DNA of 64,000 bases from Streptosporangium sp. NBC_01756 (GTDB lineage Bacteria > Actinomycetota > Actinomycetes > Streptosporangiales > Streptosporangiaceae). Position 1 is the first letter of the stretch; each line of letters starts with the position of its first letter. The notes beneath the pieces are model-generated. The model ran no database searches. It had not been told where the DNA came from and worked only from the letters and a program-made list of their open reading frames with translations. Made by a program: the position numbers and the translations under genes. The DNA is taken from assembly GCF_035917975.1 (NCBI RefSeq), contig NZ_CP109130.1, positions 6,262,001 through 6,326,000 on the forward strand, written 5' to 3'. Of the stretch, positions 16,323 through 23,390 are shown piece after piece.

Positions 16323-17660
16323 TCACTTGGGCGGGAGCGTCCACGTCACGGTGCGGGTCAACGTCCCGTAGGTGTCGTAGGACCTGGCCCATCCCAGGGT
16401 TTCGAACCGCCCGTTCTCCTGGTTGATCCACTTGTCTTCCCGGTTGAAGTTGTAGCGGTCATAGGCGTGGACGGTGACCTCCATGGTCGCCTGATCGCCG
16501 TTGACCTTGACGTCGGAACTGCCCCAGATCGAGTGGCGGCCGAGTGCGAACTCCCAGTTCTTGGTCGCGCTGTCGGTGACCTTCACCGGCTCACCCGTCA
16601 TCTGGAAGTCCCGGTGGCCGGTCTCCCGGTAGAGGCGCTCGGCGTTCTCCTGGGCTCGGCGTATCTCCGCGTCGACGGCCTCACGGACCGCCTTGTCCTC
16701 GTGGTAGGCCTTGTCGTAGTCGATCCGGTAGTCGCTGCCGGAGCCGTCCAGGTAATGCTTGAAGGTGGCCGCCGCCTCGTCGTAACCGGGCATCGCCTCC
16801 TCGCCCTGCAGCAGCGCCTGCCATTTGTACCAGAGCGCGTAGTCCCCGGAAGAGGGCCGCGCGTCGGGATCGTACGGCCAGGGATCGTCGTAGGGAATGC
16901 CGGGATCCCGGGGCGGGCCGAGGTCGTACTTCCCGTCTCGCGGGCCCTCCTCCGGAGGCTGCGGCGGTGGATGCGGGTGCGCTGCCGGCCGATGTTCCAT
17001 CATCCAGGTGACACCCGAAGCCGTCGCGGCCACGCCTGCGGGCCCGAGCGCCCCGCCGAGACGTGAGCCTTTCGCGGCGGTTGCGAAGGTGGGGGCTTTG
17101 GCGCCGAGCAGGCGGCGCAGGCGGGTCTCCACGGCGCGGATCAGTTTTTGGCCGAAGTATCGTTCGAGTTTGTGGCGCAGGGTCGCCATGGCTTTCCTGG
17201 CGAAGAGGCGCAGGGCCGCGATGAAGCTCCGGGCCTGGAGTGCGGCGAGGCCGCCGGAGATCAGGGCCGTGGTCATGGCCCAGGCGACGGCGAGCAGGGC
17301 GTAGGTCGCGAGGAGTTTCAGCAGGAGCTTGACGACTGTGATGACCTTGGCGAACAGGTTGTGGCCGTCGGCCAGGGCGTGCAGGGAGGTCGCGAGGTTC
17401 TGTAGGTGGCCGGTCTGCTGGTCGTCGCCTTGGTAGTCGGTCCAGTGGTCGTTGAGCTCGTCGATGTGGTCGCCGGAGTTCTTCGCGCTGGCGTGTGCGA
17501 CGGCGCCGTTGGCCGTGGGGTTCACCTCGCCCTCGAGGGCGGTGGCGCAGGCGTGGAGGGCTGCCCCGCACGCGTGGAGGTGGTCTTCGTCTTCCTTGGG
17601 CCATTCCACGCCGAGCAGGCCGAACGAGGCCTTCAGCTCAGCCGGGAGGGTCACTGCCAT
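16323..17660 (-). CDS. CpnT-N-like (WXG100-like domain) secreted protein, paralogue A
   Basis: A 445-residue protein. Residues 1-105 resemble the helical WXG100-like N-domain of CpnT-type toxins (LPAELKASFGLLGVEWPKEDED at the start). Residues 106-141 are strongly hydrophobic and may insert in a membrane. A basic helical region runs to 197, then a Pro-rich linker (about 222-240). The C-terminal domain (about 245-445) is unrelated to any toxin fold I can name; it carries the motifs WYKW, VHAYDRYNFN, GRFETLGWARSYDTYG and TRTVTW. The architecture suggests an ESX-secreted polymorphic effector with a variable end. Residues 1-197 are identical to the paralogue at 18155-19507, while the C-domains are only about half identical. 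The partner ESX gene upstream is broken. Confidence 0.7.
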   Translation of the reverse strand: MAVTLPAELKASFGLLGVEWPKEDEDHLHACGAALHACATALEGEVNPTANGAVAHASAKNSGDHIDELNDHWTDYQGDDQQTGHLQNLATSLHALADGHNLFAKVITVVKLLLKLLATYALLAVAWAMTTALISGGLAALQARSFIAALRLFARKAMATLRHKLERYFGQKLIRAVETRLRRLLGAKAPTFATAAKGSRLGGALGPAGVAATASGVTWMMEHRPAAHPHPPPQPPEEGPRDGKYDLGPPRDPGIPYDDPWPYDPDARPSSGDYALWYKWQALLQGEEAMPGYDEAAATFKHYLDGSGSDYRIDYDKAYHEDKAVREAVDAEIRRAQENAERLYRETGHRDFQMTGEPVKVTDSATKNWEFALGRHSIWGSSDVKVNGDQATMEVTVHAYDRYNFNREDKWINQENGRFETLGWARSYDTYGTLTRTVTWTLPPK

Positions 17661-18154: not shown

Positions 18155-19507
18155 TCACTTGGGCGGGATTGTCCACGTCACGGTACGTGTCAACGCTCCG
18201 TGCGTATTGTAGGACCTGGCCCATCCCAGGGTTTCGAAACGTCCGTTCTCGTCGTCGGGCTTGCCCGTCGCGATGTCGGCTGCGCCTCGGTTGAAGTTGT
18301 ACCTGTCTTCGGCGTGAACGGTGATCTTCATAGTCGCCTGATCGCCCTCGACCTTGACGTCGGCACTGCCCCAGATTGTGTGCGAGCCGATTGTCTTCTG
18401 CCAGTTCTCCGTACTGGAGTCCCCACCGGTCGGCGCTCCCGTCATCTGGAATTCGCGACGGCCGCTCTCCTTGTAGAGACGCTCGGCCTCAAGTTGCGCA
18501 TCCATGACCGCAGAGTCGACGGAATTACGGATCATGTCGTCTTCCTTGTACGCCCTCTCGTAGTCGACCTCGAAATCAGTGCCGGAGCCCTCCATGTAGT
18601 GCTCGTATGCGGCGAGCCCATCCTTCAGATCGTCCCGCTTCAGCTGGCCGCCCCGCATCATCGCCCGCCACTTGTACCAGCTCTCGTAGTCGCCCAGAGA
18701 CGGCTTCTCGTTGGAGTCATAGGGGAAATCATGGTCGTAGCCGAGGTTGGGCGTCTGGGAGGGGCCGAGGTGGTATCTCCCTGTTTTTTGATCACCTTTC
18801 GGGCGATCCAGTGGGGGAGGTGAGTGCTGATCCGGTTTTTCTTTCATCAAGGCCTGGTAGCCTCCGGCGCCCGCCAGCATGGTCGTACGTCCGGCCACCC
18901 TGCCGAAGCGTGAGGCTTTCGCGGCGGTTGCGAAGGTGGGGGCTTTGGCGCCGAGCAGGCGGCGCAGGCGGGTCTCCACGGCGCGGATCAGTTTTTGGCC
19001 GAAGTATCGTTCGAGTTTGTGGCGCAGGGTCGCCATGGCTTTCCTGGCGAAGAGGCGCAGGGCCGCGATGAAGCTCCGGGCCTGGAGTGCGGCGAGGCCG
19101 CCGGAGATCAGGGCCGTGGTCATGGCCCAGGCGACGGCGAGCAGGGCGTAGGTCGCGAGGAGTTTCAGCAGGAGCTTGACGACTGTGATGACCTTGGCGA
19201 ACAGGTTGTGGCCGTCGGCCAGGGCGTGCAGGGAGGTCGCGAGGTTCTGTAGGTGGCCGGTCTGCTGGTCGTCGCCTTGGTAGTCGGTCCAGTGGTCGTT
19301 GAGCTCGTCGATGTGGTCGCCGGAGTTCTTCGCGCTGGCGTGTGCGACGGCGCCGTTGGCCGTGGGGTTCACCTCGCCCTCGAGGGCGGTGGCGCAGGCG
19401 TGGAGGGCTGCCCCGCACGCGTGGAGGTGGTCTTCGTCTTCCTTGGGCCATTCCACGCCGAGCAGGCCGAACGAGGCCTTCAGCTCAGCCGGGAGGGTCA
19501 CTGCCAT
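18155..19507 (-). CDS. CpnT-N-like (WXG100-like domain) secreted protein, paralogue B
   Basis: A 450-residue protein with the same layout as its neighbour: a WXG100-like helical N-domain (1-105), a hydrophobic stretch (106-141), a basic helical region to 197, a linker, and a C-terminal domain. The C-domain motifs are WYKWRAMMRGG, VHAEDRYNFN, GRFETLGWARSYNTHG and TRTVTWTIPPK. The linker differs completely (DRPKGDQKTGRYHLGP), and a short IATGKPDD insertion follows the DRYNFN motif. The complete ESX-like gene ends 4 bp upstream, so they are probably co-transcribed and co-secreted. I cannot name the C-domain activity. No separate immunity gene is evident nearby. Confidence 0.7.
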   Translation of the reverse strand: MAVTLPAELKASFGLLGVEWPKEDEDHLHACGAALHACATALEGEVNPTANGAVAHASAKNSGDHIDELNDHWTDYQGDDQQTGHLQNLATSLHALADGHNLFAKVITVVKLLLKLLATYALLAVAWAMTTALISGGLAALQARSFIAALRLFARKAMATLRHKLERYFGQKLIRAVETRLRRLLGAKAPTFATAAKASRFGRVAGRTTMLAGAGGYQALMKEKPDQHSPPPLDRPKGDQKTGRYHLGPSQTPNLGYDHDFPYDSNEKPSLGDYESWYKWRAMMRGGQLKRDDLKDGLAAYEHYMEGSGTDFEVDYERAYKEDDMIRNSVDSAVMDAQLEAERLYKESGRREFQMTGAPTGGDSSTENWQKTIGSHTIWGSADVKVEGDQATMKITVHAEDRYNFNRGAADIATGKPDDENGRFETLGWARSYNTHGALTRTVTWTIPPK

Positions 19508-19511
19508 CGCG

Positions 19512-19841
19512 TCAGGCCGTACGGGGGGTGTTTGCCGGGACGATGGCCTGGACGGTGTCCTGGACGTCGAGCTCGTTCACGCGCATGTTGTGCGCCATCA
19601 TCTGGACGCCTTCCCCGGTCAGGTGGAGGTTGCCGTGAAGCTGTCCACAGGCCTGATGGAGCAGTTCGGTGAGCTGGTCCATGGCCTGGCCGGTGGCGCT
19701 GCCGCCCCATGCCGTTCCCCCGGTGCCGTGGACGACCGCGAGCAGGTTGCCGGTGTGCCGCTGAAACAGGGCGGCGGTGTCCAGCAGGTGCCGTCCCGCC
19801 TCGTTCAGCGATGTGTGGTCGAACCGGAGTTCCGCACTCAC
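19512..19841 (-). CDS. ESX-like small helical protein (WXG100-size), partner of paralogue B
   Basis: A 109-residue protein starting at GTG, with AGGAG 7 bp upstream. It is mainly helical, lacks a signal peptide and has the size and spacing of an ESX/WXG100 substrate. A central Gly-rich turn (GTGGTAWGGSATG, residues about 40-52) provides the W-x-G motif as AWGG between two helices. Typically such proteins pair with the N-domain of a larger effector and direct it to the type VII machine. It ends 4 bp before the start of the toxin-like gene at 19507, which supports co-translation. The C-terminal end (DTVQAIVPANTPRTA) may carry the export signal. No ESX secretion genes are in the window. Confidence 0.7.
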   Translation of the reverse strand: MSAELRFDHTSLNEAGRHLLDTAALFQRHTGNLLAVVHGTGGTAWGGSATGQAMDQLTELLHQACGQLHGNLHLTGEGVQMMAHNMRVNELDVQDTVQAIVPANTPRTA

Positions 19842-20202
19842 TGTCCATCTCCTGCGGCAATGATCCATCTTTACGGATGGGACTTTATCGGACCTTGGTA
19901 TTCGGCGGTATGTATTCAGATCGAGCTCGTCCGGAATGTGATCGCTGTACGGGACGCCGCCGGGTGTGACATGTCGGGCCGTCGCCGTTTCCTCTCGTCC
20001 GCCGTGGTGATCGCGCTCACTGCGACCGCCCTGCGGATCGCCGACGTCGACCGTCCGGGATCGCGGCTGTCCGGTCGTGTCCTGGCTCGATGGTGAGCCT
20101 GTATCCGGATGCCGGATGCCGGCGACGGCAAGAATGGTGATCTTGCGGACGATGCCTTTTGATGTAACCCTGTACCGATATCTGGAACCAAGGAAGGCAC
20201 TC
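19842..20202. other. Divergent promoter region of the ESX-like and split-nuclease genes
   Basis: A 361-bp gap between the minus-strand ESX gene and the plus-strand gene at 20203. The block TTTACGGATGGGACTTTATCGG (split as TTTACGGAT near 19869 and GGACTTTATCGG near 19880) is conserved in copy A near 17890, so it is likely part of the ESX promoter. No coding frame was credible. Confidence 0.4.
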
Positions 20203-21234
20203 ATGGCCCGGGAACCTGACGGCCGGACGAGGCCCGCACCGATCAGCAGCTCCGACCTGTGGGATCTGAGGTCTGATCCGGCACGGCTGGAGATGCTCGC
20301 CGGCACCTGGCGGAGTCTGGGGGCCAAGGCGGGCGCCGCGGAGGGCAGGGTCAACACCGCCGCGCAGAACGTGTTCTCCAACGAACACTGGACGGGCGAG
20401 ACCGCCGACGCGTTCAACGACTACCGCAAGAAGCTGACCGCCGATGTCGAGCTGTTCGGCAAGTGGGCGACCAACATCGCCGACACGCTCGACATCACGG
20501 CCACCACGCTGCGCGTGCAGCAAGGACTCCTCGACGAGGAGCGCCGGAAACTCAGCGCGGTGCCGGTGACCACGGATCTCGCGGGTGTGACCTTCCGCCC
20601 GAAGGACGCCGAGCAGTCGAGCCTGGTCAGCGGGGCGATCTCCGCGGCGACGGAGATCCGCACACGGGTGGACGGGGTGCTTGAGGAGAAGCGGCAGGAC
20701 CTCACGTTCTTCCAGGAGCAGTTCGACCTGATAGCCAAGCAGTGGAAGCCCCGTACGGTGCGCCTGCTGAATCTCAACGTCGGCCAGGGGGCCGGCAACT
20801 CTCCGGGCGACTCCGTCGGCACGGACTCCGGCGGGGACATCTCCAGGATCGCGCAGGTGGTCGCCGACCAGGACGCGGACATCGCCACCGTGCAGGAGGT
20901 CTTCAAGCACGACATGTTCGACCTCGAGGAGGAGCTCGAAAGCCGCACCGGGGACAACTGGGACGTCAAGTTCGAAGAGGCGAGCAAGAAGTACCACGCC
21001 AGCGACGACTGGCCCATCCTCGGGGACGTCATCAACGCGCCGTTCGGCAATGCCGTGCTCGTCCGCGAAGGCGACGTCATCGAGGGCACGGGGGACAGCG
21101 AGCGGATCAAGCTCGACGTCGACGGCGGAGACATCACCCTTCCGGCCAACACGCCGGGGGCGGGCGACACGAAGATCGACGACGGCGAGGGACGGTCCGC
21201 GGCCATGGCGGAGGTCAACATCAGGCCGAGGTGA
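20203..21234 (+). CDS. WXG-type secreted protein carrying the N-terminal half of an EEP-family nuclease
   Basis: A 343-residue protein; the ATG has GGAAGG 5 bp upstream. Residues 18-120 are an ESX-like helical hairpin with the WTG motif at 63-65 (NEHWTGETADAF). Residues 150-182 are a helical linker. From 184 on the sequence is the first half of an endonuclease/exonuclease/phosphatase fold: TVRLLNLNVGQG with the metal-site Asn192, DADIATVQEV with the catalytic Glu232, and GNAVLVR (282-288). It ends after the strand GRSAAMAEVNI with only three more residues. The second half of the fold, with the catalytic His, Asp-Asn and Asp-His motifs, is absent. That half is encoded by the convergent gene ending 4 bp away. 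Alone it should be inactive. Confidence 0.75.
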   Translation: MAREPDGRTRPAPISSSDLWDLRSDPARLEMLAGTWRSLGAKAGAAEGRVNTAAQNVFSNEHWTGETADAFNDYRKKLTADVELFGKWATNIADTLDITATTLRVQQGLLDEERRKLSAVPVTTDLAGVTFRPKDAEQSSLVSGAISAATEIRTRVDGVLEEKRQDLTFFQEQFDLIAKQWKPRTVRLLNLNVGQGAGNSPGDSVGTDSGGDISRIAQVVADQDADIATVQEVFKHDMFDLEEELESRTGDNWDVKFEEASKKYHASDDWPILGDVINAPFGNAVLVREGDVIEGTGDSERIKLDVDGGDITLPANTPGAGDTKIDDGEGRSAAMAEVNIRPR

Positions 21235-21238
21235 GCGG

Positions 21239-21982
21239 CTACCAGTTCGGGATCTCCACGTCGACCTGCTGGCCGTCGTGGTCGGAGGTGGCCCCGTCCA
21301 CCAGGACGGGCTGCCCGTTCATGGTGAGGCCCGGTGAGCCGGTCACGTGGTCGATGCGGGTGCCCGAGGGTGAGGTGCCGACGACCTTCCCGTCCTCGTT
21401 GGCCGCGCCCGAGTAGACCGTGTAGCCCTCTTCCTTGAGGTCGTGGATGGCATCGGCGGAGGAGGTGTTCTTCGGGTTGTCGCCGTTGTTCGTCACGATG
21501 TTGAGGTCGGCGCCCAGCAGCGACGGGCCGCGGTTCATGGCATCGTGGAGCTTGTCGATCTGACCGGTCCGCACGAAGTCGTCGTATTTGTGCAGGCCAT
21601 GACTGTGCACGTGGGCGCTGTAGACGTCGAAGCCCTTGGCGGCGCCGGCGAAGAGACGGTCGGCGATATCGTCGTCCAGCTCCCTGAAAGCGGTGACGAC
21701 CTTGCGGAGCCGTCCCTGGTCCGCGTCGAGCACTCCGATGAGGATCTCCGCCAGGCCGTCGGCCGCCGCCTGCAGATCCGCGTGCGCGGACCCCGCCGCA
21801 GTGGCCTTGCCGGTGTTGCCGAACGCGTTGGAGCCGGGCACGCTCGGCACCGGCACGTAGGTGACGGCTCCGGGGCCTCCCGCAAGGGCGGTGCGGCCCT
21901 GCTCCACGGCCTTGCGGGCCTCGTCCACCTGGTCGGCCAGCTCGCTGACCGCGCTGAACTTCATGCTTGGCTCGACGTCCAT
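21239..21982 (-). CDS. ESX-like protein carrying the C-terminal half of an EEP-family nuclease
   Basis: A 247-residue protein from the ATG at 21982 (MDVEPSMKFS); an in-frame ATG at 22027 would add 15 residues, and neither start has an ideal ribosome site. Residues 1-112 are an ESX/WXG100-size helical domain (helices around 8-33 and 65-110, with a Gly/Pro-rich turn). The rest is the second half of an EEP nuclease: FDVYSAHVHS with His124, SLLGADLNIV with Asp159 and Asn161, GTRIDHVTG with Asp211, and ATSDHDGQQVDVEI with Asp234-His235. The N-terminal Asn and Glu motifs are missing and lie in the convergent gene at 20203. The two proteins together carry every motif once. Confidence 0.75.
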   Translation of the reverse strand: MDVEPSMKFSAVSELADQVDEARKAVEQGRTALAGGPGAVTYVPVPSVPGSNAFGNTGKATAAGSAHADLQAAADGLAEILIGVLDADQGRLRKVVTAFRELDDDIADRLFAGAAKGFDVYSAHVHSHGLHKYDDFVRTGQIDKLHDAMNRGPSLLGADLNIVTNNGDNPKNTSSADAIHDLKEEGYTVYSGAANEDGKVVGTSPSGTRIDHVTGSPGLTMNGQPVLVDGATSDHDGQQVDVEIPNW

Positions 21983-22130
21983 GGTCGCCGAGCCTAGCCC
22001 TGTCTCAGCGGCCTCATCAAGGGACATCCCCTCCAAAGGATCTTGTTTCACGAAGGGGTTCTTCGGGCGGCGCGGTCGAGAGGCAGGTGGCCGGCGGTCC
22101 GCGGCCGGAACGCGGGTGTAGCGTTTCCGG

Positions 22131-23390
22131 ATGACCGTGCTGCTCCCCGGTGTCGCGCTCACCGACCACGTCTTCACCGTCCCCCTCGACCACGCCGATC
22201 CCGGCGGCCGGACGATGGAGGTCTTCGCGCGCGAGGCGGTGGACCCGGCCAAGCAGGACCGGGAGCTGCCGTGGCTGCTCTTCCTGCAAGGCGGCCCCGG
22301 AGACAAGTCGCCGAGGCCGAAGGCGGCCGACGGCTGGCTGGGGCACGCGCTCAGGACGCACCGGGTGCTCCTGCTCGACCAGCGGGGAACCGGCCGGAGC
22401 ACCCCCGTCACCGCCGGGACGCCGACCGATACGGACGCGGAACTGGCCGCCTACCTCCGGCACTTCCGCGCCGACTCGATCGTGGCCGACGCCGAGCTGA
22501 TCCGGCGCGAGCTCTGCGGCGACCGGCCCTGGGAGACGCTCGGTCAGAGCTACGGCGGGTTCATCACGCTGACCTATCTGTCCCGGGCCGCCGAAGGGCT
22601 CAGGGCCTGCTACGTGACGGGTGGCCTGCCGGGGCTGGACGCCTCCGCCGACGAGGTCTACTCCCGCACCTACCCCCGGGTCCGCGGCAAGGTGGACCGC
22701 TACTTCGCCCGCTATCCCGGTGACGACGCCCGTCTGAACGCGGTGGCCGAGCGGCTGCGCCGCGAGGAGACCCCGCTGCCCGACGGCGACACGCTGACCG
22801 TCCGGCGCCTGCAGACGCTGGGCCGGTGCCTGGGTATGAGCGACGGCGCGGAGTATCTGCACTGGCTGCTGGAGACCGCCTGGAGCGGGGAGCGACTCTC
22901 CGACCTGTTCCTGTACGAGGTCATGATGGCCACCGGATTCGTCGGCAACCCGCTCTATGCGGTGCTGCACGAGTCGATCTACGCCCAGGGCGGGCCCACC
23001 GGGTGGGCCGCCGACCGGCTGCTGCCCGAGGAGTTCGACCCCGACGCGGACCCGCTGCTCCCCGTCGGGGAGATGATCTACCCCTGGATGTTCGACGAGA
23101 TCGCGGCCCTGCGCCCCTTCAAGGGCGCCGCCGAGATCCTCGCCGCCGATGACACCTGGCCCGACCTCTACGACCCGGTACGGCTGGCCGCCAACCGGGT
23201 CCCGGTCGCCGCCGCCGTCTACTACGACGACATGTACGTCGACGAGGACCTGTCCACCCGGACCGCGCGCACGGTCGGCAACGTGCGGACCTGGGTGACC
23301 AACGAGTGGGAGCACGACGGCGTCCGCGTCTCCGGCGGGCAGGTGCTGGCCCGCCTGATGGACACGGTCGGCGGGGCGCACGGCTCCTGA
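22131..23390 (+). CDS. Peptidase S33 family alpha/beta hydrolase (proline iminopeptidase-like)
   Basis: A 419-residue cytoplasmic enzyme with no signal peptide. The oxyanion region reads FLQGGPGDKSPRP (QGGP in place of the usual HGGP). LLDQRGTGRS follows, and the nucleophile elbow is GQSYGGF with Ser140. The C-terminal third supplies a candidate Asp (YYDDMYVDEDLS) and His (EWEHDGVRVSG). This pattern and length fit S33 prolyl or tripeptidyl aminopeptidases, which remove N-terminal residues, often proline, from peptides. It stands alone: the upstream gene is divergent and the downstream gene is convergent, 41 bp away. Exact specificity is uncertain. Confidence 0.88.
   Translation: MTVLLPGVALTDHVFTVPLDHADPGGRTMEVFAREAVDPAKQDRELPWLLFLQGGPGDKSPRPKAADGWLGHALRTHRVLLLDQRGTGRSTPVTAGTPTDTDAELAAYLRHFRADSIVADAELIRRELCGDRPWETLGQSYGGFITLTYLSRAAEGLRACYVTGGLPGLDASADEVYSRTYPRVRGKVDRYFARYPGDDARLNAVAERLRREETPLPDGDTLTVRRLQTLGRCLGMSDGAEYLHWLLETAWSGERLSDLFLYEVMMATGFVGNPLYAVLHESIYAQGGPTGWAADRLLPEEFDPDADPLLPVGEMIYPWMFDEIAALRPFKGAAEILAADDTWPDLYDPVRLAANRVPVAAAVYYDDMYVDEDLSTRTARTVGNVRTWVTNEWEHDGVRVSGGQVLARLMDTVGGAHGS

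Follow-up and report, generated by a model that had tools for sequence, protein, structure and literature searches.

A convergent gene pair of Streptosporangium that probably encodes one EEP hydrolase divided between two type VII export partners

In the usual view of secretion-system effectors, a toxin domain is attached to a trafficking domain and helper proteins stand alongside it; in type VIIa systems, the genes of the partner proteins lie in tandem in one operon. According to the part of PMC9600955 drawn on here, type VIIa effectors are obligate heterodimers that can be secreted only once the partners have paired, and a WXG motif and a YxxxD/E motif on the partner proteins together make up a bipartite signal. 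Here we analyze a 64,000-nucleotide stretch of the Streptosporangium sp. NBC_01756 genome (NZ_CP109130.1, positions 6,262,001 to 6,326,000; hereafter the window), in which two convergent genes, P1 and P2, relate to these systems in an unusual way. Judging from their sequences, P1 and P2 probably form, as its two subunits, a single effector secreted by a type VII (ESX) system, and they carry complementary halves of one endonuclease/exonuclease/phosphatase (EEP) hydrolase.

The P1 gene (20203-21234, plus strand) encodes a protein of 343 residues with a WXG-type N-terminal domain (N-domain) followed by the N-terminal half of an EEP domain, and the P2 gene (21239-21982, minus strand) one of 247 residues with an export-partner-type N-domain followed by the C-terminal EEP half. 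Both are open frames with homologues, and the start codon of P2 is uncertain, its open frame extending further upstream. The stop codons of the two genes bear out the 4-bp gap between them (21235-21238) reported in a preliminary description of this DNA, and the residues singled out there are all in place: W63-T64-G65, N192 and E232 in P1, and H124, D159, N161, D211 and D234-H235 in P2. The central claim of that description, that one EEP fold is divided between two ESX-type proteins, is likewise supported. Against a 265-column profile of five continuous EEP proteins, which were chosen from loci retrieved by P1 and P2 profile searches so that the comparison tests the placing of the halves and is not an independent discovery, the half in P1 (residues 183-343; 20749-21231, plus strand) occupies columns 11-140 (hhalign probability 97.8, E 1.3e-12) and the half in P2 (residues 116-247; 21242-21637, minus strand) columns 144-263 (probability 97.6, E 2.9e-12). 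The halves tile the continuous domain without overlap and are separated by three columns. A looser earlier profile of ten continuous EEPs had placed P1 at columns 114-178 (90.7%) and P2 at 238-360 (98.3%) of 380, in the right order and non-overlapping, with a wider gap that closed with the five-protein profile. In control comparisons, the N-domains did not match the continuous EEP profile (0.3% for that of P2, 0.2% for that of P1), and the two halves did not resemble each other (0.2%); on the latter ground, the idea that one half is an internal duplicate of the other was rejected.

The Pfam model Exo_endo_phos (PF03372) also falls into complementary ranges, with profile positions 9-78 in the P1 and 94-225 in the P2 of the window, and at E <= 0.1 it is matched by 12 of the 14 aligned P1 proteins (best E 1.1e-6) and by all 15 P2 proteins (best E 1.6e-8). 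The EEP domain is not continuous in one chain. Besides its FGNAV and R331 strands, the half in P1 is marked by N190, N192, Q231, E232 and R331, invariant in 14 of 14 sequences, and the half in P2 by S122, H124, D159, N161, D211, S233, D234 and H235, invariant in 15 of 15. Eight of these positions, N192 and E232 of P1 with H124, D159, N161, D211, D234 and H235 of P2, we take to be the catalytic residues of DNase I-type enzymes; the set Asn, Glu, His, Asp-x-Asn, Asp and Asp-His is complete across P1 and P2, and invariant throughout the sequences of both. Searched against PDB, the half in P2 matches 4ruw (196-329, E 1.1e-7), 3g6s (134-260, E 4.6e-4) and the sphingomyelinase C structure 2ddr (E 0.0023), while the half in P1 matches 3g6s at 28-64 weakly (E 0.15), ranked below three terpene synthase entries (0.067); the halves are placed in complementary parts of 3g6s, if only weakly for P1. 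The pair may have a sphingomyelinase-type activity. Single-sequence PDB searches returned mostly Outer surface protein A for P1 (best E 0.0039), which we took as chance, and nothing convincing for P2 (best E 0.22).

The nearest unsplit relatives among the fetched loci, L162 and L168 (both in genome G1294), are continuous EEPs with lipoprotein-like starts that are 55% identical, and each is matched by both halves in the right order. In a search of 8998 open frames, comprising those of the window and of all fetched loci with duplicates included, L162 was found by the P1 half at E 1.4e-13 and by the P2 half at 1e-6, the former lying at its residues 375-489 and the latter at 529-649; beyond the split loci, both halves have matches at E <= 0.05 in seven continuous frames. 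Around the junction the continuous chain of L162 reads GRSFLGTEITTERHGVVDVYNTHLAR; P1 stops at GRSAAMAEVNIRPR and P2 picks up at GFDVYSAHVHSHG. The search for genomes with the same split, or with a single fused gene, that had been proposed as a check recovered the split from 19 genomes and no WXG-EEP fusion among the frames examined.

These 19 genomes belong to two orders, and in all of them the genes of the pair are convergent, not tandem as in type VIIa pairs, with inter-stop gaps of 3-28 bp (the locus L158 included) and both frames open at full length in 17 of the 19. Within the window's genus P2 is found in 4 of 16 genomes, and within its family 13 of 341 have a P2 match, 11 of which have an open, convergent pair; named carriers are Nonomuraea basaltis and Nonomuraea sp. 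G32 (Streptosporangiaceae; G157 and G197, each counted once). The pair also occurs in a second family of the same order (G1193). G694, the genome with the Nocardia farcinica locus, belongs to a genus in which seven of 150 genomes matched. The convergent pair is present in six of these, in two cases with one N-terminal frame not open (that of P1 in G822 and of P2 in G802); the order of that genus holds one further split pair, in G1437. The seventh match in the genus, in G823, was set aside as a different effector. The one locus without P1, in G198 (L043), has a P2 that is broken: just two pieces of it were recovered, which match residues 1-123 and residues 121-150 and are separated by about 1.9 kb, with no P1 within the 20 kb fetched. 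This coincidence is in line with a two-subunit effector. In G283 a partial match to the P2 N-domain lies in an apparently non-coding frame and was not recovered by the P2 profiles at E <= 0.1.

Identity to the window proteins goes down to 33% for P1 and 26% for P2. At identities of at least 65%, NG86 dN/dS values against the window are 0.32-0.58 for P1 and 0.26-0.52 for P2, with 0.61-0.84 for two distant relatives, where the counts saturate; the codons of both genes are, by these ratios, under purifying selection. Distances among P1 proteins correlate with those among P2 proteins (r 0.99 over 14 loci, a value reached in 0 of 5000 permutations), also within eight close relatives (0.92; 0 of 5000) and five Nocardia-group loci (0.87; 91 of 5000). 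Such correlation is as joint inheritance predicts, and vertical descent alone gives the same pattern. The patchy distribution of the pair and its varying gene neighborhoods suggest that it has moved between genomes as a unit. By this conservation the split is old and not a recent break; a recent inversion, named in the preliminary description as what would overturn its reading, is excluded as an accident by the persistence of the split in the 19 genomes.

The larger scans scored the best few candidates per genome and overlap in the genomes covered, and they make up part of 1995 genome searches. Across the class, profile A2 matched 16 of 394 genomes: three with split loci, 12 with continuous EEPs, none of which matches the P1 profile, and one with a coiled-coil frame (L056) that was judged spurious. 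The family of G694 gave matches to profile A4 in 26 of 401 genomes, namely three split loci, one stand-alone partner (L084) and 22 others, none of which matches the P1 N-domain (L097 matches P1 positions 172-222 only). With the same profile, 59 of 345 genomes of the window's order matched, made up of 12 split loci, G198 and 46 weak matches, 17 of the latter being checked by locus and 29 not. In the order of G694, profile A3 matched 11 of 328 genomes at E <= 1e-6, two with split loci. Neither P1 nor P2 had a match among plasmid records, and viral contigs gave none to profile A4.

The preliminary description had further assigned to each half its own ESX-type helical domain, and this holds in both cases. 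In P1 it is a WXG100-like helical region (residues 24-104; 20272-20514, plus strand), recognized by PF25547 at an E of 5.7e-4, which is under the cut-off of that model, and by the match of the P1 N-domain profile to Staphylococcus aureus EsxA (2vrz, E 6e-4). Its WTG motif (residues 63-65; 20389-20397, plus strand) is one of the WxG motifs present in 14 of 14 aligned P1 proteins, six of which also match the PPE family at E <= 0.1. The N-domain of P2 (residues 1-115; 21638-21982, minus strand) belongs to an export-partner family with stand-alone members and is a probable helical hairpin, a low-confidence model of P2 having helices at 10-35 and 57-115. The domain also has the turn motif FGNT (residues 54-57; 21812-21823, minus strand), the FG of which is present in 14 of 15 aligned P2 proteins, the exception being L072, which is without an open N-terminal frame. 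Near the end of the domain is a FxxxD motif like that of an export arm, FRELD (residues 99-103; 21674-21688, minus strand); [YF]xxxD is found here in all 15 aligned P2 proteins, with Phe in nine and Tyr in six, so that the strict Tyr form is in the minority. Against PDB the P2 N-domain profile gave nothing convincing, its best match being a designed protein (E 0.0067). What is new here is that the predicted type VII export signal is divided too, with WxG on P1 and [YF]xxxD on P2.

Both N-domain families co-occur without EEP halves, and it is mainly for this reason that we consider a pairing of P1 and P2 via their N-domains likely. At the loci L073, L159, L160 and L161, a protein of 107-120 residues of the P2 N-domain type lies directly upstream of a WXG protein on the same strand. 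These WXG proteins match P1 from positions 2-8 to 156-172 (profile A3, E 3.2e-25 to 3.7e-29), and the four stand-alone partners align with the P2 N-domains over 99 columns (hhalign probability 98.4, E 8.9e-15), a value that is not independent, the four having been found with the same family. From this arrangement the N-domains of P1 and P2 look like export partners. In L160 (1139-1462 and 1459-2820) and L161 (2046-2387 and from 2052 downwards), the partner gene's stop codon and the probable start codon of the WXG gene overlap, which suggests translational coupling in these tandem pairs. The P1-type N-domain is joined to other C-termini in L073, L159 and L160, a trait of polymorphic toxins. The WXG proteins of L073 (8322-10085, plus strand) and L159 (1-1998, minus strand), each with the P2 N-domain-like partner just upstream, continue into RTX-like repeats and a metallopeptidase-like motif, YHEMAH, both noted by eye. 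Five weaker WXG matches (L163-L167) have no P2 N-domain-like neighbor at E <= 0.01 within the 1.5 kb flanks fetched.

In the mechanism that we propose, the WXG hairpin of P1 would bind the partner hairpin of P2, as the tandem relatives are positioned to do. This pairing would unite the WxG of P1 and the [YF]xxxD of P2 into one bipartite export signal and, at the same time, hold the two EEP half-domains side by side, such that they could join up as a single fold with an active site to which both chains would contribute, P1 with N192 and E232 and P2 with H124, D159, N161, D211, D234 and H235. The heterodimer would then be exported through the ESX machine and cleave phosphodiesters, either within a competitor or in the surroundings of the cell. 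As neither chain would have a full active site, activity would be tied to the formation of the export-competent pair. Since type VIIa substrates are reported to pair before they are exported and the bipartite signal appears to be shared by P1 and P2, the two halves probably come together inside the producer, ahead of export. We are inclined to see in the pair a class of effectors that necessarily take two genes: half of the catalytic domain sits on the export partner, and one pairing completes both the signal and the active site and so licenses activity.

Several observations weigh against the proposal of a single two-subunit effector. The WXG matches of P1 stay under the curated cut-offs (20.3 against 27 bits for PF25547, 16.2 against 44.85 for TIGR03930), as do those of the window proteins to PF03372 (14.7 bits for P1 and 21.1 for P2 against a gathering threshold of 24.5). 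The P1 half is without a significant PDB match, and single-chain models of P2 are poor (mean pLDDT 35.9 alone and 46.3 with four sequences). P1 has a FxxxD of its own at residue 131 in 9 of 14 proteins, the only [YF]xxx[DE] present in 60% or more of them; it lies beyond the WXG region and is not universal, and it tells against a clean division of the signal. Among the four stand-alone partners, [YF]xxxD is seen by eye in three and not in L160, and next to a fifth P2 N-domain-like protein, in L133, the following frame is unmatched by the P1 profile at E <= 0.1. The tandem relatives share a strand whereas the window pair is convergent, so that an operon does not provide its co-expression. Finally, no immunity candidate recurs, which is odd for an intracellular toxin and departs from polymorphic toxins, which have a conserved immunity gene next to them: neighbor clusters (simple gene caller, BLASTP E <= 1e-8, 18 loci) occur in at most 7 of 18 loci, the top one consisting of WXG100_2 proteins. 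The target might lie outside the cytoplasm, the conditions there might be wrong for the enzyme, immunity might be encoded elsewhere, or the halves might assemble late.

The last of these options was the one put forward in the preliminary description, in which two halves harmless to the producer are exported separately and do not come together until they are outside it or inside the target cell. That each half has its own ESX-type domain, that convergent genes permit separate expression and that the 18 loci hold no conserved immunity-like neighbor would all suit such a course. However, the export motifs are divided between P1 and P2, relatives of the P2 N-domain adjoin P1-type N-domain proteins as if they were partners, and type VIIa effectors are said, in the part of PMC9600955 drawn on here, to pair ahead of their export; the suggestion is accordingly not upheld and appears unlikely to us. 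Oppositely oriented neighbors could also be an effector and its antagonist, with one half acting as a toxin or binding module and the other as an inhibitor or mimic, and without a joint active site, and the lack of any other recurrent immunity candidate would fit this. Yet an inhibitor would not need the metal and catalytic positions, which are kept on both sides; moreover, the halves tile one domain without overlap and P2 bears an export-type motif, all of which makes separate functions very improbable.

The remaining alternative is a gene broken by an inversion, with one EEP toxin severed into two pieces that are both decaying. One inversion spanning the 3′ ends of a toxin gene and a partner gene in convergent arrangement would yield the anatomy observed, and the broken P2 of G198 and the N-terminal frames that are not open in G822 (P1) and G802 (P2) could be read as decay. 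The preliminary description had discounted an inversion on the ground that the second half owns an intact export domain, an argument that is unsound, as an inversion across both 3′ ends in a convergent pair of WXG toxin and partner would leave both export domains intact. The case against decay is instead that the split is kept in 19 genomes down to the low identities given above with invariant catalytic residues in the aligned sequences, that the dN/dS values at identities of at least 65% are those of constrained genes, and that 17 of the 19 pairs have two full-length open frames. Conservation and dN/dS rule out a recent inversion or pseudogene, and a decaying broken gene is scarcely credible. 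An inversion could still account for the origin of the two-subunit effector that we favor: were toxin and partner convergent, breakpoints between two EEP strands and near the partner stop codon would produce it in one step. The partner pairs recovered in this analysis are tandem, not convergent, and the proposed convergent ancestor was not observed among the loci found. Inverted repeats by which the segment might flip were not convincing at the junction, the longest fully complementary pair listed in 19500-22300 being one of 14 nt (20225-20238 and 21913-21926), inside the two N-terminal regions.

As for the wider context, the window's genome carries an EccB gene (E 1.8e-92), EccB being the one ESX component covered by the machinery search, and has 22 WXG100_2 matches at E <= 0.01, of which 17 score above the curated threshold. 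In the window itself, two tandem WXG100_2 proteins (16323-17660 and 18155-19507, minus strand) share a near-identical N-terminal stretch of ~200 residues and differ in the C-terminal part, as in polymorphic toxin arrays; their cluster is the one that 7 of the 18 loci have in the vicinity of the split pair. At L069 (G757), four related genes encoding about 420 residues each, which form one neighbor cluster, lie on both sides of the split pair.

If the proposal holds, the helper here owns half of the enzyme, and export pairing and the building of the active site would be a single step. Keeping an enzyme harmless in this manner, up to its packing for export, would be new; the rules by which actinobacterial type VII substrates pair could be tested via an enzyme read-out, and the pair would provide a split enzyme of natural origin whose cut point is known.

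A split type VII effector was not found in the free-licence PubMed Central literature, surveyed mostly at listing level, which is no proof of absence, and the terms EEP, DNase I and exonuclease do not occur in the portion of PMC3482391 searched. Among enzymes, the EEP/DNase I-like proteins (PF03372), which include bacterial sphingomyelinase C, L162 and L168, have the same catalytic positions and strand order as P1 and P2, which differ in that the domain is cut between two strands onto two proteins. The type VIIa pairs EsxA/EsxB and PE/PPE resemble P1 and P2 in their helical-type N-domains, with WxG on one partner and [YF]xxxD on the other; unlike them, P1 and P2 are convergent genes, and each partner is extended by half an enzyme. 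In the LXG toxins with Lap1/Lap2 of type VIIb systems, from another phylum, a toxin-bearing protein likewise goes with a WXG100-like partner that has FxxxD, but the toxin domain stays on the LXG protein and LapC1 itself is apparently not secreted, as stated in the part of PMC9600955 used here. The mycobacterial EsxE/EsxF, a WXG100 heterodimer linked to the export of the toxin CpnT, is comparable as well, although there the toxin is a separate protein and the part of PMC7810871 consulted mentions no split catalytic domain. In the tandem WXG pairs of L073, L159, L160 and L161, the same two N-domain families adjoin as in P1 and P2, but in same-strand order and with a partner that has no EEP half.
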